Source: Pseudomonadota bacterium (lineage in GTDB: Bacteria; Pseudomonadota; Gammaproteobacteria; Burkholderiales; Burkholderiaceae_C). From it: a stretch of DNA of 37,737 nt. How positions within the stretch are numbered: position 1 is the stretch's first letter; every line of letters starts with the position of its first letter. The notes under the pieces were generated by a model. That model ran no database searches. It had not been told where the DNA came from and saw only the letters and a list, made by a program, of their open reading frames with translations. Shown here piece after piece: positions 3,021 to 29,120 of this stretch. The stretch covers positions 1 through 37,737 of the forward strand of contig JABBOE010000022.1 of NCBI GenBank assembly GCA_019351955.1. Direction: 5' to 3'. Both the position numbers and the translations under genes were made by a program.

Positions 3021-4190
3021 TCACTTCACCAGTTCGCTGATCTTGGCCTGGCGCAGCTTGCCATCCTGGATCAATGCAAGGAACGCATCGGACTCGGTGC
3101 CGCCATTGCTGTCAATGCCGGTAAAGTCTTGGGGATTCTCAGACGCGGGCAAGGCCTTGAGGGCGGCGGACATGTCGGCCCGAATTGCGGTGGCGTCGGT
3201 GGCGCTTCCGGCCATCTTCATGGCTGCGGCCAGCGCATGCACCATGGTGTAGTTAAAAGCCATTTCAGACGTCGGAACCGTTCCGCCATGGCTCTTGGCA
3301 TATGCGGCAACGTATGCCTTCATGGCCGGACGGGCGTCCGAACCCAGGGGCAGCACACCGATCGATCCGTCCATCGGGGCGTAGCCGCCCAAAACCTTGG
3401 CCATCTCGTCGAACTTGGCCTGGTCCATCACGGCAAATCCGCCCTTGAAACCGAGGTCACGCGCCTGTTTGACCACGAGGGCCGTTGGTTCGGACGGGCC
3501 TCCCACGAACATCACGTCAGGCTTTGCCGCCAGCACGCGGCTCACTCCGCTGTAAAAATCCGCCGATTTGTTGTACGAGATGGGGTTGTCGGCGACCACT
3601 TTGCCGCCTGCCTTTTCCCAGCCTTCGCGGAAAATCTTCGACCAAGCCTTGCCATAGTCGGTATCCGATGGGGCCAAGCCGACAGACTTGCCGAAAAGTT
3701 TCATCTCCGTGTGCGCATAGGCGGGCACGTAGCTTGCAAAGGATGGCGGGATGCGAATGGTCAGCTTGTTCCCTGCCTGCGTGATGCTCGGCACGCTGGA
3801 GTAGGCCATCAGCAGAAAATTGGCTTGCGTGTTGAATGTCTGCAGGGCGAAGATGCCCCCGGCATGGGGACAAAAAATCACTGGCGTTTTGTCCTGTTCG
3901 ACGAGGCGCCTGCCGTTGATGGCCGCCTGCGCTGGGTTGTACTGATCATCCAGTGCGATGACTTTGAACGTGTACGTTTTGCCTTTGATGGTCACGCCAC
4001 CTGCGGCATTGACCTCATCGACTCCCATCTCGATGCCCGAAAGCACGTTTTTGCCGTACTGTGCCGCTCCGCCACTCAGTGGCCCGGTGTAGCCGATGTT
4101 GATCACATCCTGCCCGTGCGCGGCCGCGCCGAAGGCCGCGGCCGTGGCTGCGGCCAGTGAGAGTTTTTTCAGGGTTGTGAATGCACGCAT
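3021..4190 (-). CDS. ABC importer, periplasmic substrate-binding protein (LivK/BmpA-like, branched-chain amino-acid type)
   Basis: Captures the transported substrate in the periplasm and hands it to the LivHM permease. The 389-residue protein starts with a typical Sec signal peptide (MRAFTTLKKLSLAAATAAAF..., cleavage likely after AHG near residue 26). It continues with INIGYTGPLSGGAAQYGKNVLSGIEMGVDEVNAAGG, the hallmark opening of the Peripla_BP_6 family. Members bind branched-chain amino acids, but many bind aromatic or aliphatic acids when encoded beside catabolic genes, as here. The start at 4190 has AAAGGAGAC at good spacing. It is the last gene of livHMGFK, 54 bases after livF; a 3'-terminal binding-protein gene is common in catabolic copies. 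The actual ligand cannot be read from the sequence. Confidence 0.9.
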   Translation of the reverse strand: MRAFTTLKKLSLAAATAAAFGAAAHGQDVINIGYTGPLSGGAAQYGKNVLSGIEMGVDEVNAAGGVTIKGKTYTFKVIALDDQYNPAQAAINGRRLVEQDKTPVIFCPHAGGIFALQTFNTQANFLLMAYSSVPSITQAGNKLTIRIPPSFASYVPAYAHTEMKLFGKSVGLAPSDTDYGKAWSKIFREGWEKAGGKVVADNPISYNKSADFYSGVSRVLAAKPDVMFVGGPSEPTALVVKQARDLGFKGGFAVMDQAKFDEMAKVLGGYAPMDGSIGVLPLGSDARPAMKAYVAAYAKSHGGTVPTSEMAFNYTMVHALAAAMKMAGSATDATAIRADMSAALKALPASENPQDFTGIDSNGGTESDAFLALIQDGKLRQAKISELVK

Positions 4191-4244
4191 GCTTGTCTCC
4201 TTTGGGTTTGGAATCAACCAATCGGCATGGAATCCGAGGGGTTC

Positions 4245-4952
4245 CTAGGTGCCGATATACGCTTTGCGTATGCTTTCGTCGTGCAACAGCGCCGTGGCGT
4301 TGCCCTCCATGACCACCCTGCCCTGCTCGATGACGTATGCGCGGTTTGCGATACGCAACGCTGCATGAGCGTTTTGTTCGGCCAGCAGGACCGTGGTGCC
4401 GGCTTTGTTGATCGCCTGGATGACCTCGAACATCTGCTTGACCACAAGGGGCGCAAGCCCAAGCGAAGGCTCGTCGAGGAGCAGCAACTTGGGTTGGCCC
4501 ATCAAGGCGCGTCCGATCGCCACCATCTGCTGTTGTCCGCCACTGAGCGAACCAGCTGGCTTATCGCGTTTTTCAGCAAGGTCGGGAAAAAGCGCGAACA
4601 CCTGGTCCAGGCGCTCTCGCACGCCGGCCTTCTCGCGGCGGTGCACATAGGCACCGAGTTGCAGGTTTTTCAATACGGAAAGCTGGCCAAAGAGCTTGCG
4701 ACCTTCCGGACAGTGGACAAGTCCATGCGCGACGATTTGCGGTGCGCGCAGGTGGGCAAGGTCCAGTTCCCCCCACCGCGCCTGCCCGGAGCGAATGCGC
4801 AGCAAGCCACTGAGGGCATGGAACAAGCTGCTTTTTCCAGCTCCGTTCGCACCGAGCAGCACGACCAATTCGCCCTCGTGCACGTGCATGTCGACGCCCT
4901 GTAAGGCCAGAAAAGCGTCGTAACCTACCGTCACTCCCTCAAGCTTCAGCAT
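4245..4952 (-). CDS. livF: ABC importer ATPase, LivF-type
   Basis: Second ATPase subunit of the branched-chain-type importer, hydrolysing ATP at the inner face of the membrane. The 235-residue protein has Walker [10 protein letters not shown] (about 34-42), Q-loop region, signature SLSGGQQQM, Walker [14 protein letters not shown] and the switch His region AEQNAHAAL, all canonical for LivF. The start at 4952 has GGGAGTG upstream and overlaps the end of livG by 14 bases, indicating translational coupling. An upstream in-frame start would add 27 residues that lie within livG and are not family-like. Confidence 0.92.
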
Positions 4953-5703
4953 CCGGCACTCCCAGGTATGCATGAATGACATGAGGATTCTCGCGGATGG
5001 CCTCTGGCGCGCCTTCCGCGATTTTCTTGCCATGGTTGAGAACGATTACGGTATCGGCCAAACGCATGACCATGTCCATCTTGTGCTCCACCAGGCAGAC
5101 CGTCAGGCCGCTTAAGGCAAGCTTGCGGATGAGCTCGGCCAATCGCGCGGTTTCCTCCGGATTGATGCCCCCCGCAGGCTCATCAAGAAGGATGAGCTTG
5201 GGCTCAGTGGCTAGCGCCAGAGCAATGGCGGCGCGCTTGCGCTGCTCTTGCGTGATATCGCCGGCCAGGCGGTGCGCCACATCACGCAAACCGACGAATT
5301 CGAGTGCGGCTTGCGCTTTGGTGCGACACAGCGCCTCTTCGCGGCGCAGCCGTGGCGAGCCCAACAGTGCATCCCACAAGCCTGCTCGAGTGCGCAGGCG
5401 ATGGCCGATGATCAGATTGTCCAGCACGCTGGCATGGTCGAAGAGTTGGGAACTTTGAAAGGTCCGGGCTATGCCGAGCCGTGCCATGTGGTCAGGACGC
5501 GACCCCGTGACGGTTTGCCCCTCGAGGCGAATGGACCCGCAGCTGGGCTTGCAGACTCCGCTGATGAGATTGAAAAAGGTTGTTTTGCCAGCGCCGTTCG
5601 GCCCGATGATGGCTGTGATGCTGCCTCGTGCAATACGCGTGCTGACGCCGTCGACTGCAGCCAGTCCCCCGAAACGCACACCTAAGTCATGGATTTCAAG
5701 CAT
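4939..5703 (-). CDS. livG: ABC importer ATPase, LivG-type
   Basis: First ATPase subunit of the importer. The 254-residue protein starts [21 protein letters not shown] and has Walker [10 protein letters not shown], the LivG-specific region [25 protein letters not shown], Walker [17 protein letters not shown] and the switch-region EHKMDMVM. The ABC signature reads DITQEQRKR, clearly different from the usual LSYGQQR of LivG; the Gln and Arg that follow are kept. The start at 5703 overlaps the end of livM by 8 bases. The frame is open for a further 157 codons upstream, but that part lies over livM and is not protein-like. Confidence 0.92.
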
Positions 5704-6724
5704 GGCCGTGTCTTTGTGCCGCGGAGGCTCGGTGTTCGTGAGCGGGTGCCGCATCAGCTTGTGCGACGGCCAAGGCCTGCGAGGTACGCCTGGCGCGCCA
5801 ATTGCGAAGGCTGCCGACAATGCCCGCGGGCAGGAAAATGAGGAGCACGACCAGCAGCGGGCCGAATACGAGCATGCGGTAGTCCTGCATGAACTGCAGG
5901 TATTGCGTGATCCAGGGCAGGACCAATGAGCCGACAATCGGCCCGGCAACCGTACCCAGCCCACCGATGAGCATGGCTGTGACCATGTCGAACGTGTGCG
6001 CGATATTGGCCACATCCGGGCCCAGAAAGCGGATGGTCCCCGCATATAGTCCACCGGCCAAACCGGCGTAAAACACTGAAAGTACAAAGGCCAGCAGTTT
6101 GGTGCGCATGAGCGGAATGCCCAAGGCTTCGGCGAGCGGTTCGCTGTTTCGCACGGCCATGAAGCTGCGCCCAACCAAGGAGCGCACGATGCGCTGCATC
6201 ATCCACGTCATGACCACAAGGGCACCGAGCGCCAGGTAATACTGGGCGCGTGGCGTGGAGAATTGCACAGGGCCGAAGCCTGGAGGTGCCGGAATGCCGA
6301 TGATGCCGCTCACACCGTGGGTAAGACCATCCCATTTTTCGATGACCAGATTGATGATCGTGCCCACACAGAGCGTGAATATCGCGAAGTAATACCCGCG
6401 CAGGCGCAGCGACAGCCAGCCAATGGGCATGCCCAATACGGCTGGAACCACCCCCGACAGCAAGAAGGCCCACCAGAACGGAACTCCATGGTCAACCGTG
6501 AGGATGCCCACCGTGTAGGCCCCAATGGCCATGAAGCCGGCGTGTGCCAAATTGAGCTGCCCCGTATAACCCGTGATGAGATTCAGACCCAGCGTCGCGA
6601 TGGCGTAGATGAAAGCCAGCGCGAGCACGGACAAGACATAGTCATTGCCGCCCGCAAGCCACGGCAACGCGATCCCGAGCGCCAGCGGCGCGATCCATAT
6701 GGCCGTGCGCCGGGACGGTCCCAT
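5696..6724 (-). CDS. livM: ABC importer permease, LivM-type
   Basis: Inner-membrane permease that pairs with LivH to form the channel. The 342-residue protein is strongly hydrophobic with about nine or ten membrane segments. It carries the LivM hallmarks LGLNLITGYTGQLNLAHAGFMAIGAYT, LRGYYFAIFTL and the coupling-helix region RIVRSLVGRSFMAVRNSEPLAEALGI. ATG at 6724 lies one base after the livH stop codon; a GTG at 6736 is an alternative start that would overlap livH by 11 bases. The C-terminal 30 residues are Ala/His-rich and poorly conserved-looking. Confidence 0.92.
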   Translation of the reverse strand: MGPSRRTAIWIAPLALGIALPWLAGGNDYVLSVLALAFIYAIATLGLNLITGYTGQLNLAHAGFMAIGAYTVGILTVDHGVPFWWAFLLSGVVPAVLGMPIGWLSLRLRGYYFAIFTLCVGTIINLVIEKWDGLTHGVSGIIGIPAPPGFGPVQFSTPRAQYYLALGALVVMTWMMQRIVRSLVGRSFMAVRNSEPLAEALGIPLMRTKLLAFVLSVFYAGLAGGLYAGTIRFLGPDVANIAHTFDMVTAMLIGGLGTVAGPIVGSLVLPWITQYLQFMQDYRMLVFGPLLVVLLIFLPAGIVGSLRNWRARRTSQALAVAQADAAPAHEHRASAAQRHGHA

Positions 6725-6725
6725 G

Positions 6726-7589
6726 TCAGCGAGCACCCTGTGTCAACAAGCCTTGCGGCCGCATCGAGAGGACGACCACCAGAAGCACGAAGGCGATGAT
6801 GTCTTTGTAGTCGGTGGAGACGTAGAAGCCGCCGAAGCTCTCGGCCATTCCAATGATCAGCCCTCCGAGGATGGCTCCCGGGAAGCTGCCCATGCCGCCG
6901 AGAATGATGATCACGAACGCCTTCACGATCACCAGACCGCCCATCGTCGGGTACAAAAGGTTGATGGGCGCGTAAAGCACCGCTGCCACTGCAGCGAGCG
7001 CACCTGAGATGGCAAACACCAGGTACGTCACCCGTCGTGCATCGATGCCGACGAGCGCGGCACCCTGCGGGTCCTGCGCCAAGGCCAGGATGGTCGATCC
7101 CGTGACCGTGCGGGTCAGAAACAGGTGCAAGACGCTCACCAAGACGAAAGCGGCCGCGATGATGAGTACCCGTTGCAGGGGAAACGGCATGCCTGCGATC
7201 TGCAGAACCTGGCCGTACGGGGTGGGCAGGCGATGGAACCCAGCCCCCCAAATGAGTTGGGCTGCAGATTCGAGAAACAGCATGACGCCGATGGCCCCGA
7301 TCATGTCGTAAAGCTCGGGCGCCTTGCGCAGCGGCGCAAACACCAGTGCTTGCATCAGCATGCCCAGAAGCGCCACGGTCGTTCCCGCGCCCAGCATCGC
7401 CCACCAATAGCCAAGCCCCAGCTTGCTGATCAGCGTATAGGCTACATAACCGCCCACCATGTATAGCGCGCCATGTGCAAAGTTCGGAATATGCAGCACA
7501 CCGTAGACCATCGTCAGGCCGAGCGCGACCAGTCCATAAATGGCACCAAGGGTTAGGCCGTTGAACAGCAATTGGACGATCTGGTCCAT
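6726..7589 (-). CDS. livH: ABC importer permease, LivH-type
   Basis: Inner-membrane permease of the importer. The 287-residue protein starts MDQIVQLLFNGLTLGAIYGLVALGLTMVYGVLHIPNFAHGALYMVGGY, the classic LivH opening. It also has the cytoplasmic loop ILALAQDPQGAALVGIDARRV, which contacts the ATPases, and GGMGSFPGAILGGLIIG near the end. An in-frame start at 7691 would add 34 residues before this motif, with no family support and across the putative operator, so 7589 is chosen. It is the first gene of the liv operon and is separated from the acyl-CoA ligase gene by a 182-base gap containing the half-site array at 7666-7690, so it probably has its own promoter. Confidence 0.92.
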   Translation of the reverse strand: MDQIVQLLFNGLTLGAIYGLVALGLTMVYGVLHIPNFAHGALYMVGGYVAYTLISKLGLGYWWAMLGAGTTVALLGMLMQALVFAPLRKAPELYDMIGAIGVMLFLESAAQLIWGAGFHRLPTPYGQVLQIAGMPFPLQRVLIIAAAFVLVSVLHLFLTRTVTGSTILALAQDPQGAALVGIDARRVTYLVFAISGALAAVAAVLYAPINLLYPTMGGLVIVKAFVIIILGGMGSFPGAILGGLIIGMAESFGGFYVSTDYKDIIAFVLLVVVLSMRPQGLLTQGAR

Positions 7590-7665: not shown

Positions 7666-7690
7666 TGGAATCCTATTCCGCACAGCGGCA
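7666..7690 (-). promoter_or_regulatory. Putative IclR operator upstream of the liv operon
   Basis: Three half-sites follow each other with 5-base spacers: TGGAA (7666-7670), TTCCG (7676-7680) and CGGCA (7686-7690). GGAA-N5-TTCC is a perfect palindrome and TTCCG-N5-CGGCA an imperfect one. The same spacing is present at the iclR promoter (23474-23498) and, in weaker form, at comB (20815-20839). It lies 77 bases ahead of the livH start, a normal promoter distance. Assignment to the IclR-family regulator at 22541 is inferred from this sharing. Confidence 0.5.
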
Positions 7691-7771: not shown

Positions 7772-9445
7772 TCAAGGCGCCGCTTGCTGGCGCTGTGCCT
7801 CGCGCTCTTGCAAAGCGCGCCATTGCACTTTGCCTGTGCCCGACTTGGGAAGGCTGTCGACAAATTCGACGATGCGTGGGCTCTTGTACGCCGCCATGTG
7901 TTCGTGCGCCCAATCCACAATGGATTGCTCGCTCACTCCGCCTCGAGCCTGCGGCTTGAGGACGACGTAGGCCTTGACCGTCTCCCCCCGCTTGGCATCG
8001 ACGGCACCCACCACGCAAGCTTCGGCAATGTCCGGATGCTGGTACATCATGGATTCGACCTCTGCGGGCCAGACCTTGTAGCCGGAGGCGTTGATCATGC
8101 GCTTGAGACGGTCGACCATGAAAAAATAGCCTTCCTCGTCGACGCGACCAAGGTCACCGGTGCGCAAGAATCGCTTGCCATCCTGGGTGATGAACGCCTC
8201 CTCGGTCGCCGTGGGCTGACCCCAGTAATCCTGCATCACCTGGGGGCCGTGTACGACAATTTCGCCCACCTCCCCAGCAGGCAAGACGCGCAAGGTTTGC
8301 GGGTCAATGACGCGGGCATCCACATCGAAGATCGGGATGCCAAGGCATTGGCGTTTGGGCCGGTCCAGCGGGTTGATGTGCGAGGGAGCCATGGTTTCGG
8401 TCATGCCATAGCCCTCCATATAGGTGATACCGCACAGATCATGGAGCTTCTGCGCCACCGCTTCGGGCATCGCCGCACCACCGCCGCCCATGTTCCACAC
8501 GCTCGAGAGGTCATAGTCTGCGATATGCGGGTTCATTAGAAAGTCCACAACCATGGTGGAGATGGCTTGCCAGGACCCCACTTTGTAGCGCTGCACGCAT
8601 GCAGCTGCAGCATCGCGGTCCCAGCGGGGCAGCAGGACGACGGTATTGCCGTTGTACAGGGGCCCGTTCATGCTCATTTGCATGCCGGTGACATGGAAGA
8701 ACGGCAGAACGGCGAGCACCACGGTGTCCTGCGGCATCCGCACCCATTCGATACCACCGACTGCGGTGCTCATGACGCTGTGGTTGGTGTGCATGCAGCC
8801 CTTGGGCCTTCCGGTGGTTCCGGAGGTGTACGGCATGACGCACAAATCGCCTGGGCTGGTGCTCAAGGGTCCGGGAGCATGTTGTTCCGCGAGCATGTCC
8901 ACCCAGAGCGTGACATTGGCCTCCGTAAGGTTCTCCCGGGCAGCCGCAACGAATGACGGCACTGCGATGTGGGGGGACTCGGCGGCGTAGTCGCTGTACG
9001 CAGCCACGATGATGTGCTCCAGGCCTTGGCCCAGAAGTGGGCGCATCTGGGCGAACAGTTCCTGCCCGACAAAGGCTACCTTGGCCCCGCTGTCGTTCAC
9101 GTAGTGAGCGAGCTCATGTGTGAGGTTCATCGGGTTGACCGGGACCACAACGCCGCCCGCACGCAAGATCCCGTAGTAGGCAAGCACGAACTGCGGGCTG
9201 TTTTGCATGTCAAGCAGGACACGGTCGCCCGCTTGAATTGCGCAGCGTTTTTGCAGGAAGCCGGCAATCGCTTCAGCCTCGCGCTTGAAGGCGCCAAAGC
9301 TCAATGTGCCATCGTAGAAAATCAGGAATGGCTTGTCAGGGAACCGCGCTGCCGCCACCTCGACATTGAAGAACAGGTTGGTTTGTGGAATGTGCAGGTG
9401 TTGCGGCAGGCCTTTGGGCCAAACATCCAGATGGTGTGAATTCAT
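7772..9445 (-). CDS. Acyl-CoA ligase (long/medium-chain fatty acid CoA ligase family)
   Basis: Activates a carboxylic acid to its CoA thioester with ATP through an acyl-adenylate. The 557-residue protein carries the AMP-binding motif YTSGTTGRPKGCMHTN, then YMEGYGMTET, the hinge RTGDLGRVDEEGYFFMVDRLKRMINASGYKVWPAEVE, and the C-terminal PKSGTGKVQWRAL with the catalytic Lys. Length and domain order are normal. AAGGAG precedes the ATG at 9445, which overlaps the stop of the upstream hydrolase gene (ATGA). It is the last gene of the long minus-strand operon and most likely supplies the entry step for the pathway. It resembles ligases of dicarboxylate, aromatic and fatty-acid pathways; the substrate cannot be fixed from sequence. 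Confidence 0.9.
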   Translation of the reverse strand: MNSHHLDVWPKGLPQHLHIPQTNLFFNVEVAAARFPDKPFLIFYDGTLSFGAFKREAEAIAGFLQKRCAIQAGDRVLLDMQNSPQFVLAYYGILRAGGVVVPVNPMNLTHELAHYVNDSGAKVAFVGQELFAQMRPLLGQGLEHIIVAAYSDYAAESPHIAVPSFVAAARENLTEANVTLWVDMLAEQHAPGPLSTSPGDLCVMPYTSGTTGRPKGCMHTNHSVMSTAVGGIEWVRMPQDTVVLAVLPFFHVTGMQMSMNGPLYNGNTVVLLPRWDRDAAAACVQRYKVGSWQAISTMVVDFLMNPHIADYDLSSVWNMGGGGAAMPEAVAQKLHDLCGITYMEGYGMTETMAPSHINPLDRPKRQCLGIPIFDVDARVIDPQTLRVLPAGEVGEIVVHGPQVMQDYWGQPTATEEAFITQDGKRFLRTGDLGRVDEEGYFFMVDRLKRMINASGYKVWPAEVESMMYQHPDIAEACVVGAVDAKRGETVKAYVVLKPQARGGVSEQSIVDWAHEHMAAYKSPRIVEFVDSLPKSGTGKVQWRALQEREAQRQQAAP

Positions 9446-10267
9446 TCTTTGTCTCCTTTGTCTGTTTTCTCTACCCAGTCTGCTTTGGTGCGTTGCAGGA
9501 ACGGTCCCATCTGGGCGTTGACCAGAGCGGCATGCGTCAGGTTGCTGGCATGTTCCGCTCCCGCAATGACCGCCATGCGCGCATCGGCGAGAAGCCGCTG
9601 CAGGGCCACGCTTCTCTCCAGGGCGATGGCGGTGTCTGCGCCCCGTGAATCACCAGTGCAGGGACCTGGATGGCTCCCAGGCGCCCGGAGATGTCATCGC
9701 GCTCCATCAAGGCCTGAAAGCTCGCGATCAGGTTATGGGGCCTCCACAGGTGCCACTTGGCCTTCCAGGATTGCGCCTGCGGCGCCCCCTCTCCGAGGAT
9801 GATGCGCGCAATGTTGTCGGCCATCTTCTCGGGCAGACCGCCTTGCGTCCAGATGGCAAGCATTTTCTTGTGCCTCGGGATCACGGCGTCGTCCTCCGGC
9901 AGCGCCTGCGTGTTGAGGAGGACGAGTCCGTGCACGAGCCGTGGGTGGGTCAGAGCAAGCCGCAGCGCACCGTAGCCGCGCTGACTCATCCCGGCGAACA
10001 CGGCGTGCTCGATGGCCAGATGGTTCATCAGCGCCGCCAAGTCATCGGCCGAGTCGTAGTCGCTGAACGCAGCAATGCCGTCACCCGCCGTTCGCCCATG
10101 ACCACGCTGGTCCCACGTGATGCCTCGCCACTGCTCGCGAAAGCACTCGACCTGGGGCTCGAACATGCTGCCGTCCATCAAAAGGCCGTGGCAAAACACC
10201 AGCGTTGGCCAGGCCCGCCCGAGTCCCGGAAATAGACACGTTGGCCGTTGACCGGGGCGTAGGGCAT
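9442..10267 (-). pseudogene. Alpha/beta hydrolase, disrupted by two frameshifts
   Basis: Three consecutive pieces in different frames make one alpha/beta hydrolase of about 275 residues. Frame one (from ATG 10267) gives MPYAPVNGQRVYFRDSGGPG. Near 10210 one base is missing, and the next frame reads LVFCHGLLMDGSMFEPQ... through LVIHGAQ. Near 9645 another base is missing, and the third frame continues DTAIALERSVALQRLLADARMAVIAGAEHASNLTHA and ends with TGA at 9442, overlapping the ligase ATG. The family HG oxyanion motif and WDQRGHG are present. The nucleophile elbow reads GMSQRG, where G-x-S-x-G is expected, so Arg replaces a usually invariant Gly. Either this is a genuine pseudogene or both shifts are sequencing errors; the altered elbow favours decay. 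Confidence 0.75.
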
Positions 10268-20902: not shown

Positions 20903-21628
20903 ATGCAGAAAATCCACGTGTTGCTCACCAAGGAAGAACTCGACGACCAGCGTCTGGACGGTCGGGTCGTCATTGTGCTGGACGTGCTCTTTGCCACCAC
21001 GTCGGCGCTGGCCGCACTGCATGCAGGTGCCAACTCGGTGATCCCTGCGCTGGACGCGGAGCATGCACGCCGCATCGCTTCGGAGCTTGCCGTGGGAAGC
21101 GCCATCCTGAGTGGTGAACTGGATGCCGAGACCCTGCCAGGCTTTGCCCATCCGACCCCCTTGGCGCTGCTGCGCCATGATCTGCAAGGTCGCAATCTGG
21201 TTTACAGCACCACAAATGGCACGGTTGCGCTGCGCAAGGCATTGCCAGCGGCTCATGTTTATGCTGCCAGCTTGCGCAACGCCCGGGCCACCATCGCGCA
21301 CGTGCTGCGCGAGCACGCGCGCAGCACCGTTCTGATCGTGTGCGCCGGGTCGAGCGAACAATTCAATCTGGAGGATTTCTACGGCGCGGGGCTTCTCGTA
21401 TCGTGCCTGCAACAAGCCCCCGGTCAGCGCAGCTATTCCGATGCAGCGCTTGCGGCGGCCTTGTTGCAGCAGGGCAGCGACGCCTTGCGCTGCTTGGCTG
21501 ACTCGCGCGTGGGCCGCCTGATGGCCTCGCGCGGGCTTGGCGCGGAAGTGCACTATGCCGCGCAAATCCATGTGGATTCGGTGGTCGCCCGCATGGTGGA
21601 TGGGCGGCTCATGCGCGTTGCCGTCTAG
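20903..21628 (+). CDS. comB: 2-phosphosulfolactate phosphatase family protein (ComB-like)
   Basis: ComB hydrolyses 2-phosphosulfolactate to sulfolactate in coenzyme M synthesis, but homologues are widespread in bacteria that lack the rest of that pathway. The 241-residue protein starts MQKIHVLLTKEELDDQRLDGRVVIVLDVLFATTSALAALHAGA, matching the family opening. It continues with NLVYSTTNGTVAL and IVCAGSSEQFNLEDFYGAGLLVSCL, which carry the acidic metal-binding region. From memory the family consensus is DVLRATT; here Phe replaces the Arg, which may mean altered specificity. ATG 20903 fits the family start; the frame is open upstream through the hexamer array (as Arg-Met repeats), which I regard as untranslated. 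No other sulfonate gene is present. It is followed by a hydrolase gene 9 bases later. Confidence 0.8.
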   Translation: MQKIHVLLTKEELDDQRLDGRVVIVLDVLFATTSALAALHAGANSVIPALDAEHARRIASELAVGSAILSGELDAETLPGFAHPTPLALLRHDLQGRNLVYSTTNGTVALRKALPAAHVYAASLRNARATIAHVLREHARSTVLIVCAGSSEQFNLEDFYGAGLLVSCLQQAPGQRSYSDAALAAALLQQGSDALRCLADSRVGRLMASRGLGAEVHYAAQIHVDSVVARMVDGRLMRVAV

Positions 21629-22540: not shown

Positions 22541-23365
22541 TCAACGCGTGACCAGGCTTTCCAGCTGCCGTGCCAGCGCAATCAGCCGGGGCCGCACTTC
22601 CTGGAGCAAGAAGTCCGGGCTGAGCTGGAATGCGGGACCTCCGCAGTTGATCGCCATCAGAGGCATGCCACCGCCGGGGTCGATACCGATTGCAATGGCG
22701 TTGACATCAGGCTGCCAGTCGCCGAACGAACACGCGACGCCCAGGGTTCGGTAGTCGTCCAGTGCCTTGTTGATGGCGTTCTTGAGCGCAGGCCAGGCCA
22801 CCTCATCAAGTGCGGCGAGGTCCTCGAAGATGGACGCGCGCTCGCGCTCGCCAGCCACGGCAAGGTAGGCGCGCCCCGTGGCCGTGGTGGCGATGGGGAT
22901 GCGCGACCCCACGTCCAGGCTCAATGTCAAGGCGGAGGCGCTGCGGCAATTTTCGACGTAGATCAGCGACAAGCGGTCGCGTATGCACAATGAGACCATC
23001 GCCTTGGAAACATCGGCCAGCTCCTGCATCAGCGGCCTGGCAATCTGGCGAATGTCCATGCGGGCCAGCACGGTGCTGCCAAGCGACAAGGTGGCCGTAC
23101 CCAGCCGGTACTTGCCGCTGTCCTCGTCCAGTGTGAGATAGCCCAGCCGCGTCAACGTATAAGTCAGGCGCGAGACCGTGGATTTCGGCAGCTTGCAGCG
23201 CTGTGCAATGTCCAGATTGCCCAGAGCCTTGTCGCGGGCACGAAAGCTCGACAGCACCTCGAGGCCTCGCGCCAGGGCCGTAACGAACTGACGGTCGTCT
23301 TTAGATGTGCCCGTCCGCTTGTCGGGCGAATTCGCTTGGAGTGGCTTGGCGCTGTGCGTGTTCAT
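22541..23365 (-). CDS. IclR-family transcriptional regulator
   Basis: A 274-residue regulator. It has an N-terminal winged helix (FVTALARGLEVLSSFRARDKALGNLDIAQRCKLPKSTVSRLTYTLTRLGYLTLDEDSGKYRLG) and a C-terminal IclR effector domain with IPIATTATGRAYLA and the closing INCGGPAFQLS. IclR proteins bind small acids or their CoA-related metabolites and control catabolic genes. A first ATG at 23467 would add 34 residues, but it falls inside the -10 box of a good promoter (23463-23491), so ATG 23365 is chosen, although neither start has a strong Shine-Dalgarno. It sits between the comB unit and the dehydrogenase operon and is the obvious local regulator of the whole catabolic block. Confidence 0.88.
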   Translation of the reverse strand: MNTHSAKPLQANSPDKRTGTSKDDRQFVTALARGLEVLSSFRARDKALGNLDIAQRCKLPKSTVSRLTYTLTRLGYLTLDEDSGKYRLGTATLSLGSTVLARMDIRQIARPLMQELADVSKAMVSLCIRDRLSLIYVENCRSASALTLSLDVGSRIPIATTATGRAYLAVAGERERASIFEDLAALDEVAWPALKNAINKALDDYRTLGVACSFGDWQPDVNAIAIGIDPGGGMPLMAINCGGPAFQLSPDFLLQEVRPRLIALARQLESLVTR

Positions 23366-23462
23366 GGACGTGATGAGCAGTTGGAAGATGGGCGAACCGA
23401 GTGCGGCATGAGCCGCTGGGCGTGCAGTCTTGACAGGGGGCCCTGCAGGCTTAACAATCGTC

Positions 23463-23491
23463 AACATAAATCACGGAACGCGATTCCGCAA
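23463..23491 (-). promoter_or_regulatory. Sigma70-like promoter of iclR
   Basis: On the minus strand TTGCGG (23491-23486) is separated by exactly 17 bases from TATGTT (23468-23463), a good -35/-10 pair. The predicted transcription start would lie near 23455, leaving a leader of about 90 bases before ATG 23365. The putative operator (23474-23498) occupies the spacer and -35 box, so a bound regulator would block RNA polymerase, which fits negative autoregulation. Confidence 0.55.
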
Positions 23492-23498
23492 TGCGGTT
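23474..23498. promoter_or_regulatory. Putative IclR operator between iclR and the dehydrogenase operon
   Basis: CGGAA (23474-23478), TTCCG (23484-23488) and CGGTT (23494-23498) are separated by 5-base spacers. The first pair is a perfect 15-bp palindrome with the spacer; the second (TTCCG-CAATG-CGGTT) is nearly so. IclR-family sites are typically short palindromes of this size. This is the best copy of the pattern also found at 7666-7690 and 20815-20839. It overlaps the iclR promoter and lies 215 bases ahead of the plus-strand operon. Confidence 0.55.
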
Positions 23499-23536: not shown

Positions 23537-23716
23537 ATGTCTGCGGAACGCTTCCACTGGGATAATCCCCTGCGCCTTGATGCGCCCCTTTCCCCGGTCG
23601 GGCGCGCCATCCAGGAATCGGCGGCGTTTGGCGCACGCGAACGCGCACCCCGGGTGCTCAACGCCTTTCGTCACGAGATCACCGATCCCGGCTTGTTGCG
23701 GGACATAGAGCCATGA
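23537..23716 (+). pseudogene. N-terminal fragment of a glutaryl-CoA-dehydrogenase-like gene
   Basis: An open frame of 59 codons (ATG 23537 to TGA 23716) reads MSAERFHWDNPLRLDAPLS and later RAPRVLNAFRHEITDPGLLRD. This matches the N-terminal segment of GcdH-type acyl-CoA dehydrogenases (from memory, FNWDDPLLLDQQLT...LAPRVLEAFRHEKTDP). The remaining 330 or so residues of such a protein are absent. The frame ends with ATGA over the start of the next dehydrogenase gene. It is either the relic of a deleted gcdH-like gene or a short leader peptide that couples translation to the downstream gene. The similarity is by eye. Confidence 0.55.
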
Positions 23717-24915
23717 ACATTGACGTCACCCCTCAATACGCCGCATTTCGCAATGAGGTGCGAGCGTTTGTGTGCCAGTCCCTGCCAGCGGACATTCGGG
23801 ACAAGGTGCTGTACGGCTTGCGTCTGGGCAAGGAGGACTTCGTGCGCTGGCAGCGCATTCTGCACGCCAGGGAATGGGGTGCTCCCAACTGGCCCCAGTC
23901 CTACGGAGGCACGGGCTGGGATGCCGTGCAGCAGGCCATCTTCGATGAAGAGTGCGCACAGGCCGGCGCGCCTCGGCAGCTGCCATTCGGCCTGAAAATG
24001 CTGGGGCCCGTATTGATGCAGTTTGGCACGGAACAGCAACGCCAGGCCCTGTTGCCTGGCATCATCAGCGGCGATGTGTGGTGGTGTCAAGGCTACTCCG
24101 AGCCAGGTGCAGGGTCCGATTTGGCCTCGCTGAAGACCCGTGCCTTGCGCGAGGGGGCGGAATACGTCGTCACGGGCCAGAAGACCTGGACCACGCTTGG
24201 CCAATATGCCGATTGGATTTTTTGCCTCGTGCGGACCGACCCTTTGGTCAAGCCACAGCAGGGCATTTCCTTTGTGCTCATCGACATGCGCTCGCCCGGT
24301 GTGACGGTGCGCCCCATCATCACCCTGGATGGCGAGCATGAGGTCAACGAAGTGTGGTTCGATGCCGTGCGCGTGCCGGTGTCCAATCGGGTGGGCGAGG
24401 AAAACCAGGGCTGGACCATCGCCAAATTCCTGCTTGGCCACGAGCGCAGCAACATCGCCGGGGTCGGGATTGCCAAGCGTGAGCTGGCGCGACTGAAGGA
24501 GCTGAGCGCCAAGCGCGACGCACAAGGCAAGAGCCGACTTGACGACCCGCTATTCGCAGCGCGCGTGGCCCAGGCCGAGATCGACCTGATGGCTTTGGAG
24601 ATGACCCAGCTGCGCATGTTGCAACGCACAGGGCCACCGGGCCCGGAGAGTTCCATGCTCAAGGTGCTTGGCAGCGAATTGCAGCAGCGGCTGGCCGAAC
24701 TCCTGATGCATGTCGCCGGCCACCAGGCGCTGCCCTTCACCCCCGGCGCCCTCCAGGCCGAGGACTGCGCGGCGGGCTGCTGGCCTGACTACGCCAACCT
24801 CGGCACGCAATATGCCAACTGGCGCAAGCTCTCGATCTACGGCGGCAGCAACGAGATCCAAAAAAATATCCTGGCCCGTGCACTCGGACTTGCTGGAGGA
24901 TCCTCCCGAGACTGA
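23713..24915 (+). CDS. Acyl-CoA dehydrogenase, large subunit (PimC-like)
   Basis: A 400-residue flavoprotein. NWPQSYGGTGWDAVQQAIFDEECAQAGAP, WWCQGYSEPGAGSDLASLKTRA, YVVTGQKTWTTLGQYADWIFCLVRTDP, ISFVLIDMRSPGVTVRPI and VGEENQGWTIAKFLLGHERSNIAGVG are characteristic of the large subunit of heteromeric enzymes such as pimeloyl-CoA dehydrogenase. Near the C-terminus the motif is IYGGSNEIQKNI, with Gly where medium-chain enzymes have their catalytic Glu, so the base must be elsewhere or in the partner. The next gene encodes the small-subunit type, and the pair is expected to form an alpha-beta complex. ATG at 23713 overlaps the preceding fragment stop. Confidence 0.9.
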   Translation: MNIDVTPQYAAFRNEVRAFVCQSLPADIRDKVLYGLRLGKEDFVRWQRILHAREWGAPNWPQSYGGTGWDAVQQAIFDEECAQAGAPRQLPFGLKMLGPVLMQFGTEQQRQALLPGIISGDVWWCQGYSEPGAGSDLASLKTRALREGAEYVVTGQKTWTTLGQYADWIFCLVRTDPLVKPQQGISFVLIDMRSPGVTVRPIITLDGEHEVNEVWFDAVRVPVSNRVGEENQGWTIAKFLLGHERSNIAGVGIAKRELARLKELSAKRDAQGKSRLDDPLFAARVAQAEIDLMALEMTQLRMLQRTGPPGPESSMLKVLGSELQQRLAELLMHVAGHQALPFTPGALQAEDCAAGCWPDYANLGTQYANWRKLSIYGGSNEIQKNILARALGLAGGSSRD

Positions 24916-24982: not shown

Positions 24983-26104
24983 ATGCAGTGGCAAGCCACC
25001 GATGAGCAGCGCCAACTGGCCGACGCCTTGCAGCGATTCATCCAGCGCGACTATCCGTTCGAGCATCGGCGGGCCCTGAGTGCGGGCAGTGGATTCAGCG
25101 CCCAGGCCTGGGGCTTGCTGGCGCAACTCGGCATCACCGCCCTGCTCGTGCCCGAGGCCCATGGGGGTTTGGGCGCGAGCACGCAAGACGGCCTGCACGC
25201 TGTGCAGGTCCTTGCCCCTGCAATGCCGCTGGAGCCGGTTGTTGCCAGTAGCCTGCTTGCCACGCACCTGCTGGCCATGGCGGCCGGCCCCGTGGCGCAT
25301 CATTGGCTGCCGCGCATGGCTGAGGGCAAGGCCATCGCCACGCCAGCGCACTTCGAGGTGGATACAGGCTTTGCCACGGAGCAGCCGCACACCAGGGCTG
25401 ATCGCGCCGGGCCCGGCTATGCGCTTTCCGGAGCCAAGACGCTGGTGCTGCAAGCGCCATTTGCGGATGTGTTGCTCGTGTCGGCGCGCACGCATGACGA
25501 CACCGTGGCGTGGTTTGCCGTGGAGCGGGATCGCCCTGGTGTGAGCCTGCGCGGTTACCCGTTGCTGGACGGCCAGCAGGCCGCTGACGTGCAGTTCGAC
25601 GCCGTGCAGTTGCCTCCCGAGGCGCGCCTGGGTCATGCAGGTCAGGGCGTAGCGCTGCGCGATGGCTTGCGTGACCTCTGGCTGGCAGCGCTGTGCGCAG
25701 AAGCTGTGGGACTGCTGCAGGCCACGCTGGATGCAACCGTCGCTTACCTCAATACCCGGCAGCAATTTGGTCAACCCATCGGGCGGTTCCAGGCCCTGCA
25801 GCAGCGCGCCGTGGACATGTGGATGGAAGTCGAGCAGGCGCGCTCCATGGCCCTGATGGCCGCCGGGTTTGCGGGCCATCAGGATGTCGGGGTTCGTGCG
25901 CAGGTTCTCGCCGCGAGCAAGGCACGGGTGAGCCAGGCATGCCGCTTCGTCTCGCAACAGGCCGTGCAGTTGCATGGTGGCATGGGAATGACCGATGAAA
26001 TGCAAGTCAGTCACTGGTTCAAGCGCCTGACCACAATTGAGCTCTGGCTGGGCGACAGTGACGCCCAACTGCAGCGCTTTGCCCGCGGCGCGCGCGCCGC
26101 CTGA
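24983..26104 (+). CDS. Acyl-CoA dehydrogenase, small subunit (PimD-like)
   Basis: A 373-residue, more divergent acyl-CoA dehydrogenase-fold protein starting MQWQATDEQRQLADALQRFIQRDY. FWHxx-type middle motifs are degenerate; the canonical TEPxAGSD loop is replaced by a segment around VDTGFATEQPHTRA. The C-terminal half is clear: YLNTRQQFGQPIGRFQALQQRAVDMWMEVEQARSM and AVQLHGGMGMTDEMQVSHWFKRLTTIELWLGD. This is the pattern of small subunits of heteromeric dehydrogenases (PimD, steroid and dicarboxylate enzymes). AAAGGACAG precedes the ATG at 24983; an upstream start (24941) adds 14 residues without support. It follows the large-subunit gene by 67 bases. Confidence 0.87.
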   Translation: MQWQATDEQRQLADALQRFIQRDYPFEHRRALSAGSGFSAQAWGLLAQLGITALLVPEAHGGLGASTQDGLHAVQVLAPAMPLEPVVASSLLATHLLAMAAGPVAHHWLPRMAEGKAIATPAHFEVDTGFATEQPHTRADRAGPGYALSGAKTLVLQAPFADVLLVSARTHDDTVAWFAVERDRPGVSLRGYPLLDGQQAADVQFDAVQLPPEARLGHAGQGVALRDGLRDLWLAALCAEAVGLLQATLDATVAYLNTRQQFGQPIGRFQALQQRAVDMWMEVEQARSMALMAAGFAGHQDVGVRAQVLAASKARVSQACRFVSQQAVQLHGGMGMTDEMQVSHWFKRLTTIELWLGDSDAQLQRFARGARAA

Positions 26105-26123: not shown

Positions 26124-27242
26124 ATGCCTGCACGCAGCGCCCGCGCCGTGGTCTGTCGCGGACTGGATCGCCCATTCGAGGTCGAGACAATCCGCGTCGA
26201 TCCACCGCGCCAAAACGAAGTCACAATCCGCGTTGCCGCGTGCGGCGTGTGCCACAGCGACTTGTCGGCCACCAACGGCACCATTGGGATGGCGCCTCCC
26301 CTGGTGCTCGGGCACGAGGGTGCGGGCGTTGTCGTCGAGGTGGGTGATGGCGTGCGCGAACTGGCCGTTGGCGACCATGTCGTGAGCTCCTTTGTAAGCA
26401 TGTGCGGGCACTGCCGCTACTGCCAGACAGGGCGCCCGCAGCTATGCGACCAGGCTGCGCGGGCTCTGAGCACGCTGCCTGACGGCACGGTGCGCACGTT
26501 TGATGCCTCGGGGCAGCCGCTAAGCGTGTTTTCCGGCTGCGGCGTGATGGCCGAGTACGCCACTTTGCACGTGGACAACGTGGTGAAGATCGACCCTGCG
26601 ATGCCCCTGGAGCCGGCCTGCCTGATCGCCTGCGGGGTGATGACAGGCGTGGGTGCAGCCGTCAATACGGCGCGTGTGCAACCCGGCTCGACCGTGGCCA
26701 TATTCGGCTGCGGTGGCGTGGGGCTGAGCGCGATCCAGGGCTGCGCCATTGCGGGAGCGACAACGATCGTGGCCGTGGATACTCTGGCGCGCAAGCTTGA
26801 CTTTGCCCGCCTGTTCGGCGCCACCCACACGATTGACGCAAGCCGCGAGCCGCAGGTGGTCAAGGCCGTCAAACGTGCAACAGATGGCGGGGTTGATTAC
26901 GCGTTCGAATGCGTCGGCTCGGGCCAACTCGTCGCCCAGGCTTACGGCTGTGTGCGCAAGGGCGGCACGGCCGTGGTGGTCGGAGTCGCCGCGCAAAGCG
27001 ACACCACCTCCGTGCGCACGGCGAGCCTGACCTTTGAGGAGAAAACGTTGACCGGCAGCTATTACGGCTCGGCACGGCCCCGGCAGGATTTTCCGCGCCT
27101 CATTGCGCTGTATCGGCGCGGTGCCCTCAAGATCGATGAACTCATCACACGGCGCTATGGCATTGATGAGGCCGCTCTTGCTTTTGCCGACATGCAGGCC
27201 GGGCATAACGCACGTGGCGTGATTGTCTTCGACGCGTCCTGA
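26124..27242 (+). CDS. Zinc-dependent alcohol dehydrogenase (class III-like medium-chain family)
   Basis: NAD-dependent alcohol/aldehyde oxidoreductase of 372 residues. Catalytic zinc ligands are in CGVCHSD and GHEGAGVV; the structural zinc site CGHCRYCQTGRPQLC has all four Cys; the coenzyme loop is GCGGVGLSAIQG. TLTGSYYGSARPRQDFPRLIALYRRGALKIDELITRRY is typical of the aryl/allyl alcohol and mycothiol/S-(hydroxymethyl) type branch. GGAGAACC precedes ATG 26124, 19 bases after the small-subunit gene. In the pathway it would oxidise an alcohol group of the substrate or of a side product. Confidence 0.92.
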   Translation: MPARSARAVVCRGLDRPFEVETIRVDPPRQNEVTIRVAACGVCHSDLSATNGTIGMAPPLVLGHEGAGVVVEVGDGVRELAVGDHVVSSFVSMCGHCRYCQTGRPQLCDQAARALSTLPDGTVRTFDASGQPLSVFSGCGVMAEYATLHVDNVVKIDPAMPLEPACLIACGVMTGVGAAVNTARVQPGSTVAIFGCGGVGLSAIQGCAIAGATTIVAVDTLARKLDFARLFGATHTIDASREPQVVKAVKRATDGGVDYAFECVGSGQLVAQAYGCVRKGGTAVVVGVAAQSDTTSVRTASLTFEEKTLTGSYYGSARPRQDFPRLIALYRRGALKIDELITRRYGIDEAALAFADMQAGHNARGVIVFDAS

Positions 27243-27276
27243 GCCGCGCGCCTTCGCTCCACCTTCGGAACTTCCC

Positions 27277-28140
27277 ATGCAAAATTTCGACAACAGAACT
27301 GCCGTGATCACGGGCGCCGCAAGTGGCATCGGTCTCGCTCTGGCGAAACAGGCCGCCAGCCGAGGCATGAACCTGGTTCTAGCCGACCTTGACGCGGACA
27401 GACTGCAGCAGTCTGCCGTTTCCCTGAACCTGCCGGATGCGCGTGTTCTGCTGCAGGTCACAGATGTCAGCCGCGAGGCTGACATCGCCGCACTCGCCTC
27501 AGCCAGCTTTGCCCGCTTTGGTGCCGTGCACCTGCTGTGCAACAACGCGGGGGTGGGCTACAGCCGCCTCGTCACTGAACACAGCACGGCGGATTGGGAT
27601 TGGGTGCTCGGCGTGAACCTGATGAGCGTGGTGCATGCAATCCGGCATTTCGTGCCGCGCATGCAGCAGCAGGACCAAGACAGCCATGTGGTCAATACGG
27701 CCTCCGCTGCGGGCTTGATATCCAGTCCCGGCATGGCTGCCTACAACGTCAGCAAGCACGGGGTCGTGACCCTATCCGAGACCCTGTACGCGGAGCTTGC
27801 CGAGCAGCAGTCGCGTGTGAAAGTTTCGGTTCTTTGCCCCGCCTGGGTGCCCACAGGGATCCACCAAAGCGCTCGCCACCGACCTCCGCGCTACGGTGTC
27901 GAGGCCGAAATCTCGCCGCAATCGTCCGCTTATGCCGCGCGCATGGCGCAGGCCGTGCAATCCGGGCGACTGACGGCGGACGACATCGCGCGCATGACCT
28001 TTGCTGCCGTCGAACAGGGGACGTTCTATATCGTTCCGCATCGCAAGATCTTGCAGGCTGTGGAGTTGCGCTGTCAGGATATCGTGCAGAGGCGCAATCC
28101 CACGCCTCTGGCGCCGCCGACCTTGGAGGGGTCGCGATGA
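27277..28140 (+). CDS. Short-chain dehydrogenase/reductase (SDR)
   Basis: A 287-residue classical SDR: TGAASGIGLALA (coenzyme), DVSREADI, LLCNNAGVG, catalytic Ser in VNTASAAGL, YNVSKHG (Tyr, Lys), and VSVLCPAWVPTGI. Its C-terminal region resembles the group often annotated as SDR family oxidoreductases next to quinone-oxidoreductase genes in acyl-CoA pathways. ATG 27277 fits the coenzyme motif; an earlier in-frame start (27223) overlaps the preceding gene. It ends ATGA over the next start, indicating coupling. It is not similar enough to the SDR at 14655 to be a recent duplicate. Confidence 0.9.
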   Translation: MQNFDNRTAVITGAASGIGLALAKQAASRGMNLVLADLDADRLQQSAVSLNLPDARVLLQVTDVSREADIAALASASFARFGAVHLLCNNAGVGYSRLVTEHSTADWDWVLGVNLMSVVHAIRHFVPRMQQQDQDSHVVNTASAAGLISSPGMAAYNVSKHGVVTLSETLYAELAEQQSRVKVSVLCPAWVPTGIHQSARHRPPRYGVEAEISPQSSAYAARMAQAVQSGRLTADDIARMTFAAVEQGTFYIVPHRKILQAVELRCQDIVQRRNPTPLAPPTLEGSR

Positions 28141-29120
28141 AGGCACTGATGTGCAAGGCCTATGGGCCCATTGCGGATTTGCGTGTCGAGAGCGTTCCCG
28201 ACCCGGTTGCCGGTGCGGGACAGGTCGTGGTGAACGTGAAGGCTTGTGCGCTGAATTTCCCCGATGCGCTCATCGTTCAGGGGCTCTACCAGGTGAAGCC
28301 GCCCCTGCCCTTTTCGCCGGGGGCCGAGTTCGCGGGCACCATCACGCAAGTCGGTGAAGGCGTGGCGGGCTACGCGGCAGGCGACGCCGTGATCGCGTTC
28401 GCAGGGCACGGCGGGTTGGCTGAGCGCTGTGTGGTCGATGCCCGGCGCATCATGCCCTTGCCCAAGGGCATGGATTTCGAGCAGGGCGCTGCCTTCATGC
28501 TGACGTATGGCACGGCCATCCACGCACTGAAGGACGTGGCGCAAGTGCAAAGCGGAGAGAGCGTTGCGGTGCTGGGAGCTGCGGGTGGCGTTGGCCTGGC
28601 CGCAGTCGACGTGGCCAAGGCGATGGGTGCAAGGGTCATCGCGGCCGCCTCGGACGACACCAAGCTCGGCCTTGCCCGTGAGCACGGCGCCGATGTGCTT
28701 GTCAATTACGCCAGCGAGGACTTGCGCAAACGGCTACTGGAATTCACCGACGGGCGCGGTGCAGACGTGGTGCTCGACCCTGTGGGCGGCACCTACTCGG
28801 AGGCCGCGTTACGCGCCACCGCGTGGCGTGGGCGCTTCCTTGTTGTGGGTTTCGCCAGTGGCGACATTCCGCGCATTCCCCTCAACCTGGCATTGCTCAG
28901 TGAGCGCCAGATCCTGGGGGTGTACTGGGGTGAGGCGATTCAGCGCAGCCCAGCCCAGCATGCTGCCAATGTGGGCCAACTTCTGGACTGGTTCCGCGCT
29001 GCCCGCGTGCGTCCGGCCATTACCGAACGTGTTGCCTTGGATCAGGCCGTGCAGGCCATCACAAAGCTCAGTCGGCGCGAGGCGATGGGCAAAATCGTGG
29101 TCGTCGTGAGCGCCGCCTGA
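28137..29120 (+). CDS. NADPH:quinone oxidoreductase family protein (zinc-free medium-chain reductase)
   Basis: A 327-residue protein starting MKALMCKAYGPIADLRVESVPDP. It has the family motifs ALNFPDALIVQGLYQVKPPLPFSPGAEFAGTI, LTYGTAIHALKDVAQVQSGESVAVLGAAGGVGLAAVDVAKAMG (coenzyme loop) and VLDPVGGTYSEAALR. Relatives reduce quinones or alpha,beta-unsaturated carbonyls with NADPH. GGAGGGGTCGCG gives a strong ribosome site for ATG 28137. It is the last gene of the plus-strand operon, ending 9 bases from the convergent ldcA. Confidence 0.9.
   Translation: MKALMCKAYGPIADLRVESVPDPVAGAGQVVVNVKACALNFPDALIVQGLYQVKPPLPFSPGAEFAGTITQVGEGVAGYAAGDAVIAFAGHGGLAERCVVDARRIMPLPKGMDFEQGAAFMLTYGTAIHALKDVAQVQSGESVAVLGAAGGVGLAAVDVAKAMGARVIAAASDDTKLGLAREHGADVLVNYASEDLRKRLLEFTDGRGADVVLDPVGGTYSEAALRATAWRGRFLVVGFASGDIPRIPLNLALLSERQILGVYWGEAIQRSPAQHAANVGQLLDWFRAARVRPAITERVALDQAVQAITKLSRREAMGKIVVVVSAA

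Follow-up and report, generated by a model that had tools for sequence, protein, structure and literature searches.

Which compounds does a bacterium of the order Burkholderiales degrade by means of a block of acyl-coenzyme A (acyl-CoA) genes surrounding an IclR-type regulator gene, and does this block act as one system? The question is posed by positions 3021–29120 of contig JABBOE010000022.1, a stretch of 37,737 nucleotides (hereafter the window) which is a whole contig of a 3.87-Mb genome (99.6% complete, 282 contigs). Genes were assigned by Pfam and NCBIfam profile searches and translation of the window (Table 1). The block is probably an IclR-controlled catabolic regulon for the import of carboxylic acids and their degradation through 4-hydroxyacyl-CoA. 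A sequence-only reading of the same DNA had listed importer, ligase, dehydrogenase, thiolase, kinase and hydrolase genes in this region. All gene classes it named were recovered, but the list had missed phos, coding for a ComB-like phosphatase; two further genes of the double-bond/quinone reductase type (curA and qor) belong to the set, and the esterase-like gene abh1 proved to be frame-disrupted. The enzymes are of known kinds; what appears to be new is the IclR regulon, the link to a PimCD-type dehydrogenase, and the divergent phosphatase.

A split ACAD11 and a shared predicted operator

Recent work has shown that human ACAD10 and ACAD11 make 4-hydroxy fatty acids accessible to β-oxidation. 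The deduced kin product shares 45% sequence identity with the kinase domain of ACAD11 and 63% with 3dxp, and the acd11 product shares 56% with the ACAD11 dehydrogenase domain and about 57% with 4hr3. Residues D212, N217, R77 and R169 of Kin correspond to D220, N225, R86 and R176 of ACAD11, and R259, R264, H267, R270 and D386 of Acd11 to R626, R631, H634, R637 and D753; all nine residues checked are conserved. The portions of PMC12440821 drawn on here, from which the list was taken without H597, name these ACAD11 residues as catalytic or substrate-binding, with D220 as the catalytic Asp, N225 as its partner Asn, R86 and R176 as CoA-site Arg residues, and D753 as the catalytic Asp of the dehydrogenase. 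Split kinase and dehydrogenase orthologues of Burkholderia are described, in the part of PMC11342911 used, as replacing the ACAD10 domains in the conversion of 4-hydroxyhexanoyl-CoA. Judged by these alignments, kin and acd11 are the predicted two halves of ACAD11, present as separate genes. The pathway very probably proceeds via 4-hydroxyacyl-CoA, 4-phosphoacyl-CoA and 2-enoyl-CoA, a route predicted because the two proteins match the ACAD11 halves with all checked residues kept; the kinase/dehydrogenase step itself is strongly predicted, since the Burkholderia orthologues are active and the catalytic residues are retained. As in the mammalian ACAD10/ACAD11 pathway, both domains are present with these residues, but in the window they are encoded by two genes within a dedicated, regulated catabolic cluster. 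No described bacterial pathway using a split ACAD11-type kinase, other than the lva operon, was found in the open literature.

In congeners, the iclR/pimC intergenic region has a conserved GGAAC-N4-TTCCGCA-NN-GCGG site after a TTGACA-N17-AAgAAT-like promoter. A matrix built from the iclR/pimC sites of 14 relatives, with the window left out of training and thus serving as the independent test, gave its three best window matches in the iclR/pimC divergent region, upstream of livH, and between fadB and phos; the next-best match scored only 7.8 bits. The operators start 16 nt (pimC) and 11 nt (fadB) past the –10 element of the respective promoter-like sites. A position just past the –10 is usual for a repressor. 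The livH operator, unlike these two, sits immediately 5' of a TTGACA-like –35. About six GCGGAT repeats (20773–20814, plus strand) lie directly between the start of fadB and its operator.

Two near sisters outside the training set have the operators in the same places, with scores of 29.5 and 31.8 bits (iclR/pimC), 21.6 and 19.3 bits (fadB/phos), and 20.4 and 27.7 bits (livH). Three more distant genomes of the training set reach 21.9 bits at fadB/phos; scores of just 11.7 were obtained in G006 (fadB/phos) and G014 (livH). Scanning of 74 other kin-bearing loci (1.27 Mb) yielded two matches of at least 14 bits. Matches of at least 14 bits 5' of regulon genes were found in seven of ten other genomes scanned, namely Pararobbsia, Hydrogenophaga, Polaromonas, B. 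guangdongensis, and the genomes G118, G187 and G057. A degenerate pattern has three exact matches in the 3.87-Mb genome, all within the window, a count which is partly circular because the pattern was drawn to include the three window sites; across seven genomes, 13 of 15 exact matches fall inside the cluster. When one mismatch was allowed, two more matches appeared in the genome (G000:C171, C201), away from genes of the window type. A stricter simple pattern occurs three times in the window, as compared to 1.01 expected, and three occurrences were reached in 8 of 100 shuffles, so that this count is weak on its own. Taken together, the block appears to be a single IclR regulon with a predicted operator common to three promoter regions, and it is more than a chance juxtaposition because the gene order recurs (see below) and the three regions share this operator. 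The claim of a self-contained acyl-CoA catabolic regulon around the IclR gene, made from the sequence alone, is thereby borne out. The regulator scored 131 bits against the PcaR/PcaU/PobR model TIGR02431, below its cut-off of 285, and was not assigned to that subfamily.

Conservation of the locus

Homologues of kin were found in 39 of 60 relatives at E ≤ 1e-40. Of 27 same-genus genomes, 22 have a kin gene of 64–98% identity, and all 22 loci were examined with per-gene identity thresholds; several are cut by contig ends, and the counts are given as found. Besides the bait kin (22), the loci contain curA and fadB (21 each), acd11 (20), iclR and pimC (18 each), pimD and qor (17 each), and sdr2 (16). 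The core thus comprises iclR, fadB, curA, kin, acd11, pimC, pimD, sdr2 and qor, and recurs in the genus; its most stripped version has qor-sdr2-pimD-pimC divergent from iclR-fadB-curA-kin-acd11. Treated as one unit in the sequence-only reading, the gene set is indeed not scattered in relatives as far as the core is concerned, but the accessory genes vary: lig was found in 11 loci, acdC in nine, thl, sdr1 and pat in six each, adh and abh2 in five each, and the importer in four.

Outside the genus, the best 80 kin loci from a scan of named genomes were inspected, with neighbours accepted at ≥40% identity. The acd11 gene lies inside the fetched flank in 59 of them, but fadB in just nine, indicating that most kin genes of the order are located outside such a block. 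Five of these loci combine lig, acd11, kin and sdr1: L111 (Pararobbsia silviterrae), L112 (a Hydrogenophaga metagenome-assembled genome, MAG), L115 (a RIFCSP Burkholderiales MAG), L133 (Polaromonas sp. CG_9.7) and L099 (a LaPlata MAG). An iclR gene is present in the first four, but none was seen in L099, a locus cut off by the end of its contig; L111 has a distant fadB (42%) at the locus edge and no thl. A second locus of B. guangdongensis (L238) also has the block with iclR. The whole set of lig, sdr1, kin, acd11, fadB and thl occurs together with iclR in L133, L112, L115 and L238, and with a more distant iclR homologue (42–44%) in G057 and G187.

The split kinase is widespread: in an even sample of 230 genomes from the order of the window, 63 contain kin. 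In three of them (G118, G057 and G187, from two other families) kin is located ≤15 kb from fadB, each time with pimC-pimD and qor. The G118 locus has curA, sdr1, thl, sdr2, adh and iclR, with lig not seen in it, and those of G057 and G187 have lig, sdr1 and thl but no curA, with sdr2 in G057 alone. Hence, similar regulons with rearranged gene order appear, from homology, to occur in Polaromonas, Hydrogenophaga, Burkholderia, Pararobbsia and other families.

A conserved block of fadB-thl-acdC-sdr1-curA homologues in other genera (L078–L082, L241; parts in L083 and L084) was examined as a possible instance of this system, but no kin or pimCD gene was seen in these stretches, and it was classed as a general β-oxidation block; L079 also carries genes for an AidB-like dehydrogenase and a glutathione S-transferase (GST). 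On plasmid pSR-3 of Skermanella rosea (L191), IclR, fadB-like, pimC-like and pimD-like genes are found near a branched-chain-type ATP-binding cassette (ABC) importer; kin was not seen in this stretch, and it has no operator match of at least 14 bits.

Pathway, substrate and rival explanations

The lig, sdr1, kin, acd11, fadB and thl products would represent, by analogy, the LvaE-D-A-C enzyme set plus β-oxidation. In levulinate catabolism, according to the portions of PMC6692424 and PMC9628823 consulted, the ligase LvaE, the 4-oxo reductase LvaD, a kinase and an acyl-CoA dehydrogenase feed β-oxidation. By this logic the ABC importer would take up the acid and Lig would form its CoA ester; PimCD and/or AcdC, with FadB and Thl, would shorten the chain until the oxygen stands at C4. 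A ketone in this position could be reduced by Sdr1 to 4-hydroxyacyl-CoA, as by LvaD; sdr1 adjoins kin in distant regulons. Kin would phosphorylate the 4-hydroxyl and Acd11 eliminate the phosphate to give 2-enoyl-CoA, steps known for the homologues, and FadB and Thl would release acetyl-CoA and a shortened acyl-CoA. PTGR/double-bond reductases reduce conjugated enones. A 4-oxo substrate would presumably yield 4-oxo-2-enoyl-CoA, an enone suited to CurA, so that CurA and Qor may re-reduce such dead ends; the CurA product is matched in the PDB search by PTGR1 and plant double-bond reductases and scores 429 bits with the NCBIfam curcumin reductase model, slightly under the cut-off of 440. Binding at the three predicted operators, IclR would most simply be a repressor whose inducer frees three transcription units.

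The proposed substrate, an oxygenated, branched or cyclic carboxylic acid in the sequence-only reading, can be narrowed to oxygen at C4 of the acyl-CoA, because kin and acd11 set the central chemistry; nothing was found to point to a branched or cyclic acid in particular. The presence of PimCD-type and AcdC dehydrogenases points to acids with longer chains than levulinate, which may be dicarboxylic. Levulinate would not call for two dehydrogenases dedicated to chain shortening, and the most likely substrates are therefore medium- or long-chain acids oxygenated at C4, C6, C8 or C10, or their γ-lactones, possibly dicarboxylic, rather than levulinate alone. The ligand of Sbp cannot be named because its closest solved structures score only about 63 bits.

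Similarity to the lva and pim operons had also been noted from the sequence alone. The first holds for the ligase, the short-chain dehydrogenase/reductase (SDR), the APH-type kinase and the ACAD10/11-type dehydrogenase, which are united in one locus; moreover, P. citronellolis has a histidine-type phosphatase gene beside its kinase gene and lacks lvaB, as far as the part of PMC6692424 used here goes. The window differs from lva in having an IclR regulator instead of the σ54-type LvaR, a five-gene ABC importer instead of LvaF/LvaG, its own fadB, thiolase, PimCD pair, acdC, curA and qor, and no room for an LvaB-like gene beside kin (gaps of 30 nt between acd11 and kin and 14 nt between kin and curA). 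LvaA is given 29% identity to the ACAD11 kinase in the section of PMC11342911 consulted, as compared to the 45% of Kin. With the pim operon of R. palustris and PimCD modules the window shares the two-subunit dehydrogenase, the hydratase/dehydrogenase fusion, thiolase and ligase, but not the kin/acd11 core and the IclR operator; identity with pim was rejected, the scores for PimA (259 bits, cut-off 706), PimC (463, cut-off 624) and PimD (259, cut-off 653) all being below the curated cut-offs. The Ralstonia pimelate locus (PMC12543098, as far as drawn on here) was likewise rejected as an orthologue, since the best match of Sbp in R. pickettii SSH4 reaches just 32% identity; of the five other genomes searched, three (those of Polaromonas, B. 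guangdongensis and Cupriavidus YR651) gave matches of 54–61%. A description of this gene combination was not found in the open literature, subscription papers and preprints being outside the scope of the search, in agreement with the earlier statement that no such pathway was known.

That the block is simply a betaproteobacterial counterpart of lva for levulinate (4-oxopentanoate) or γ-valerolactone, with PimCD and AcdC as side passengers, is unlikely, although ligase, SDR, kinase and ACAD11 halves and the β-oxidation pair make up a complete lva set, and L112, L115, L133 and L238 keep exactly this set (L111 the same minus a neighbouring thl). What is conserved in congeners is, however, pimC/pimD-sdr2-qor-iclR (16–18 of 22 loci) and fadB-curA-kin-acd11 (20–22 of 22), not ligase, SDR and thiolase; a C5 substrate can do without a round of acyl-CoA dehydrogenation, Lig scores above the cut-off of a long-chain FadD subfamily model, and regulator and transporter are unlike LvaR and LvaFG. 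In the portions of PMC12543098 consulted, PimCD homologues are required for C8–C12 dicarboxylates in a Ralstonia, with similar profiles in three other β-proteobacteria, and ABC importers are assigned to dicarboxylates of C7 and longer. These assignments, and the occurrence of pimC-pimD-phos beside aminotransferase, MlrC-like or aldehyde dehydrogenase genes in three loci checked (L286, L287, L289), would fit a primarily pimelate- or suberate-like regulon in which kin/acd11 serve a minor oxygenated side product. We regard this as quite improbable in view of the frequency of curA, fadB and acd11 next to kin in congeners, the Pim model scores, and the low identity of the binding protein to its Ralstonia match. 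A branched or cyclic acid of isoprenoid, steroid-like or cycloalkane type seems a very improbable substrate: the best solved relative of the PimC-like subunit is 4x28, the α2β2 sterol-side-chain dehydrogenase ChsE4-ChsE5, and the block contains an epoxide-hydrolase-like gene, but its annotated genes showed none for ring cleavage, for a carboxylase or specific to isoprenoids, 4-hydroxyacyl-CoA chemistry requires no ring, and straight dicarboxylates are served by the same dehydrogenase class (PMC12543098, in the part used).

Several observations weigh against an IclR regulon for degradation through 4-hydroxyacyl-CoA. The minimal congener locus is devoid of ligase, thiolase and sdr1, so these steps must be shared or supplied elsewhere, and the loci of G012 and G018 have kin without acd11. 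The degenerate operator pattern has one exact match outside the cluster in each of two congeners (G001:C103, G005:C77), and a reversed control pattern at one mismatch matches once in G000. No operator of at least 14 bits was found 5' of regulon genes in three of the ten genomes scanned (L115, L099 and the Skermanella plasmid L191). The PimD-like subunit, finally, is far below the PimD model, and its specificity may therefore differ from that of the dicarboxylate enzymes.

A more specific and tentative version, doubtful as yet, is a dedicated regulon for long-chain and dicarboxylic acids with a mid-chain hydroxy or oxo group, for example the monomers of plant cutin: the diacid would be shortened by PimCD, Kin and Acd11 would remove the in-chain oxygen at C4, and the ComB-like phosphatase would be a new enzyme acting on phosphorylated intermediates. 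If this is true, phosphatase, kinase and PimC form one co-inherited unit across Burkholderiales.

The phosphatase and the remaining features

The phos product belongs to the ComB 2-phosphosulfolactate phosphatase family (PF04029, about 180 bits) but falls below every NCBIfam ComB-family cut-off listed (best 128 bits vs 330; TIGR00298, 79 vs 175). Two displayed solved relatives have RATS or RATT where the window protein has FATT and the regulon members seen have FATT or FATS. tblastn searches (E ≤ 1e-8) over loci of >3.5 kb detected phos in 11, all of them regulon loci and ten independent of the window (L007 being a fragment of the window itself). Of the 230 genomes of the order sample, 25 from nine families, including that of the window, contain phos (E ≤ 1e-15); all 25 hold kin (63 of 230 overall) and pimC (61 of 230 overall), counts which, like their hypergeometric P values, ignore kinship, the P values not being probabilities of function. 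In 19 of the 25, phos is within about 6 kb of pimC. The idea that phos is tied to kin alone was dropped on this ground: with pimC nearby in 19 of 25 genomes, and both kin and pimC present in all 25, the association of phos with pimCD is no looser than that with kin.

The module has the form pimC-pimD-(HCDH)-(MaoC)-phos in other families; Pfam searches of L287 confirmed the 3-hydroxyacyl-CoA dehydrogenase (HCDH) and MaoC genes. In some of these families a homologue of abh2 lies near or after phos, and acd11 lies within the same fetched stretch as the module in G100, G053, G183, G144 and G220. Neighbours of pimC-pimD-phos include genes for a class III aminotransferase (L287, L289), an MlrC-like M81 metallopeptidase (L286, L289) and an aldehyde dehydrogenase (L289), which look as if suited to the conversion of ω-amino acids or amides to diacids. 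None of 16 phosphatase/pimC loci scanned has an operator of at least 14 bits upstream of a module gene, a single 15.2-bit match in L286 being located elsewhere; IclR control therefore looks specific to the iclR-linked regulons. As to function, our guess is that the phosphatase clears stalled phosphorylated intermediates, e.g., 4-phosphoacyl-CoA or 4-phospho acids. The locus offers a defined regulon with predicted operator, inducer class and enzyme order, connects dicarboxylate-type dehydrogenases with the kinase route, and includes a phosphatase that is uncharacterised so far; it thus makes two questions testable, namely the bacterial use of ACAD11 chemistry and the role of FATT-type ComB relatives.

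Table 1. Genes, predicted operators and promoter-like sites of the block
Feature	Position	Strand	Evidence or remark
sbp, substrate-binding protein of branched-chain-type (HAAT) ABC importer	3021–4190	–	PF13458, 160 bits
livF, ATP-binding subunit	4245–4952	–	PF00005; start set by sequence context
livG, ATP-binding subunit	4939–5703	–	PF00005, PF12399; start set by sequence context
livM, permease	5696–6736	–	PF02653
livH, permease	6726–7589	–	PF02653; start set by sequence context
Predicted operator 2, about 78 nt before livH ATG	7667–7688	.	22.1 bits, second-best window match
lig, AMP-forming acyl-CoA ligase (FadD-like)	7772–9445	–	NF006181, 897 bits (cut-off 705)
abh1, PcaD-like α/β hydrolase	9537–10199	–	Frame-disrupted at both ends (three-frame translation)
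acd11, ACAD10/11-type acyl-CoA dehydrogenase half	10314–11540	–	56% to ACAD11 dehydrogenase domain
kin, ACAD10/11-type 4-hydroxyacyl-CoA kinase half (APH-type)	11571–12629	–	45% to ACAD11 kinase domain
curA, NADPH double-bond (enone/alkenal) reductase, PTGR/CurA family	12644–13645	–	PF16884
pat, patatin-like lipase/esterase	13638–14633	–	PF01734; start uncertain
sdr1, SDR, candidate 4-oxoacyl-CoA reductase (LvaD-like role)	14655–15434	–	NF006070, 394 bits (cut-off 279)
acdC, acyl-CoA dehydrogenase of PF12806 type	15447–17279	–	Pfam
thl, thiolase	17412–18593	–	NF005494, 747 bits (cut-off 615)
fadB, enoyl-CoA hydratase/3-hydroxyacyl-CoA dehydrogenase fusion	18642–20735	–	Solved relative 6ium, 950 bits
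Predicted operator 3, between fadB and phos	20816–20838	.	20.5 bits, third-best window match
fadB promoter-like site	20878–20850	–	Promoter scan; operator 3 follows
phos, ComB-like phosphatase	20903–21628	+	PF04029, 180 bits
abh2, epoxide-hydrolase/haloalkane-dehalogenase-like α/β hydrolase	21638–22531	+	PF00561
iclR, IclR-family regulator	22541–23467	–	PF09339, PF01614
σ70-type promoter-like site for pimC, TTGACA-N17-AACAAT	23430–23458	+	Promoter scan; similar sites in congeners
Predicted operator 1, iclR/pimC divergent region	23475–23496	.	26.9 bits, best window match
pimC-like acyl-CoA dehydrogenase, large subunit	23713–24915	+	TIGR03204, 463 bits (cut-off 624)
pimD-like acyl-CoA dehydrogenase, small subunit	24983–26104	+	TIGR03203, 259 bits (cut-off 653)
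adh, Zn alcohol dehydrogenase (TIGR03989-like)	26124–27242	+	376 bits (cut-off 440)
sdr2, SDR	27277–28140	+	NF004843, 351 bits (cut-off 308)
qor, quinone/enone reductase-like medium-chain dehydrogenase/reductase	28137–29120	+	Pfam/NCBIfam

Genes on the minus strand follow the order fadB, thl, acdC, sdr1, pat, curA, kin, acd11, (abh1) and lig, below which stand the importer genes livH-livM-livG-livF-sbp. The plus strand carries the units phos-abh2 and pimC-pimD-adh-sdr2-qor, with iclR, on the minus strand, between the two. The block ends at a muramoyltetrapeptide carboxypeptidase-like gene (29130–30080). The abh1 gene is present in two of the 22 congener loci: that of G006 (L062) has an open N terminus and a C terminus apparently shifted as in the window, and for the region in G003 (L059) no long ATG-started frame is listed. 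Decay is likelier than a sequencing error. Outside the regulon, positions 31254–37429 comprise tandem hemerythrin (HHE) genes (31254–31733 and 31730–32128) beside a nitroreductase gene; a pair of GST genes comes next, with an SRAP gene and two genes for TetR regulators.

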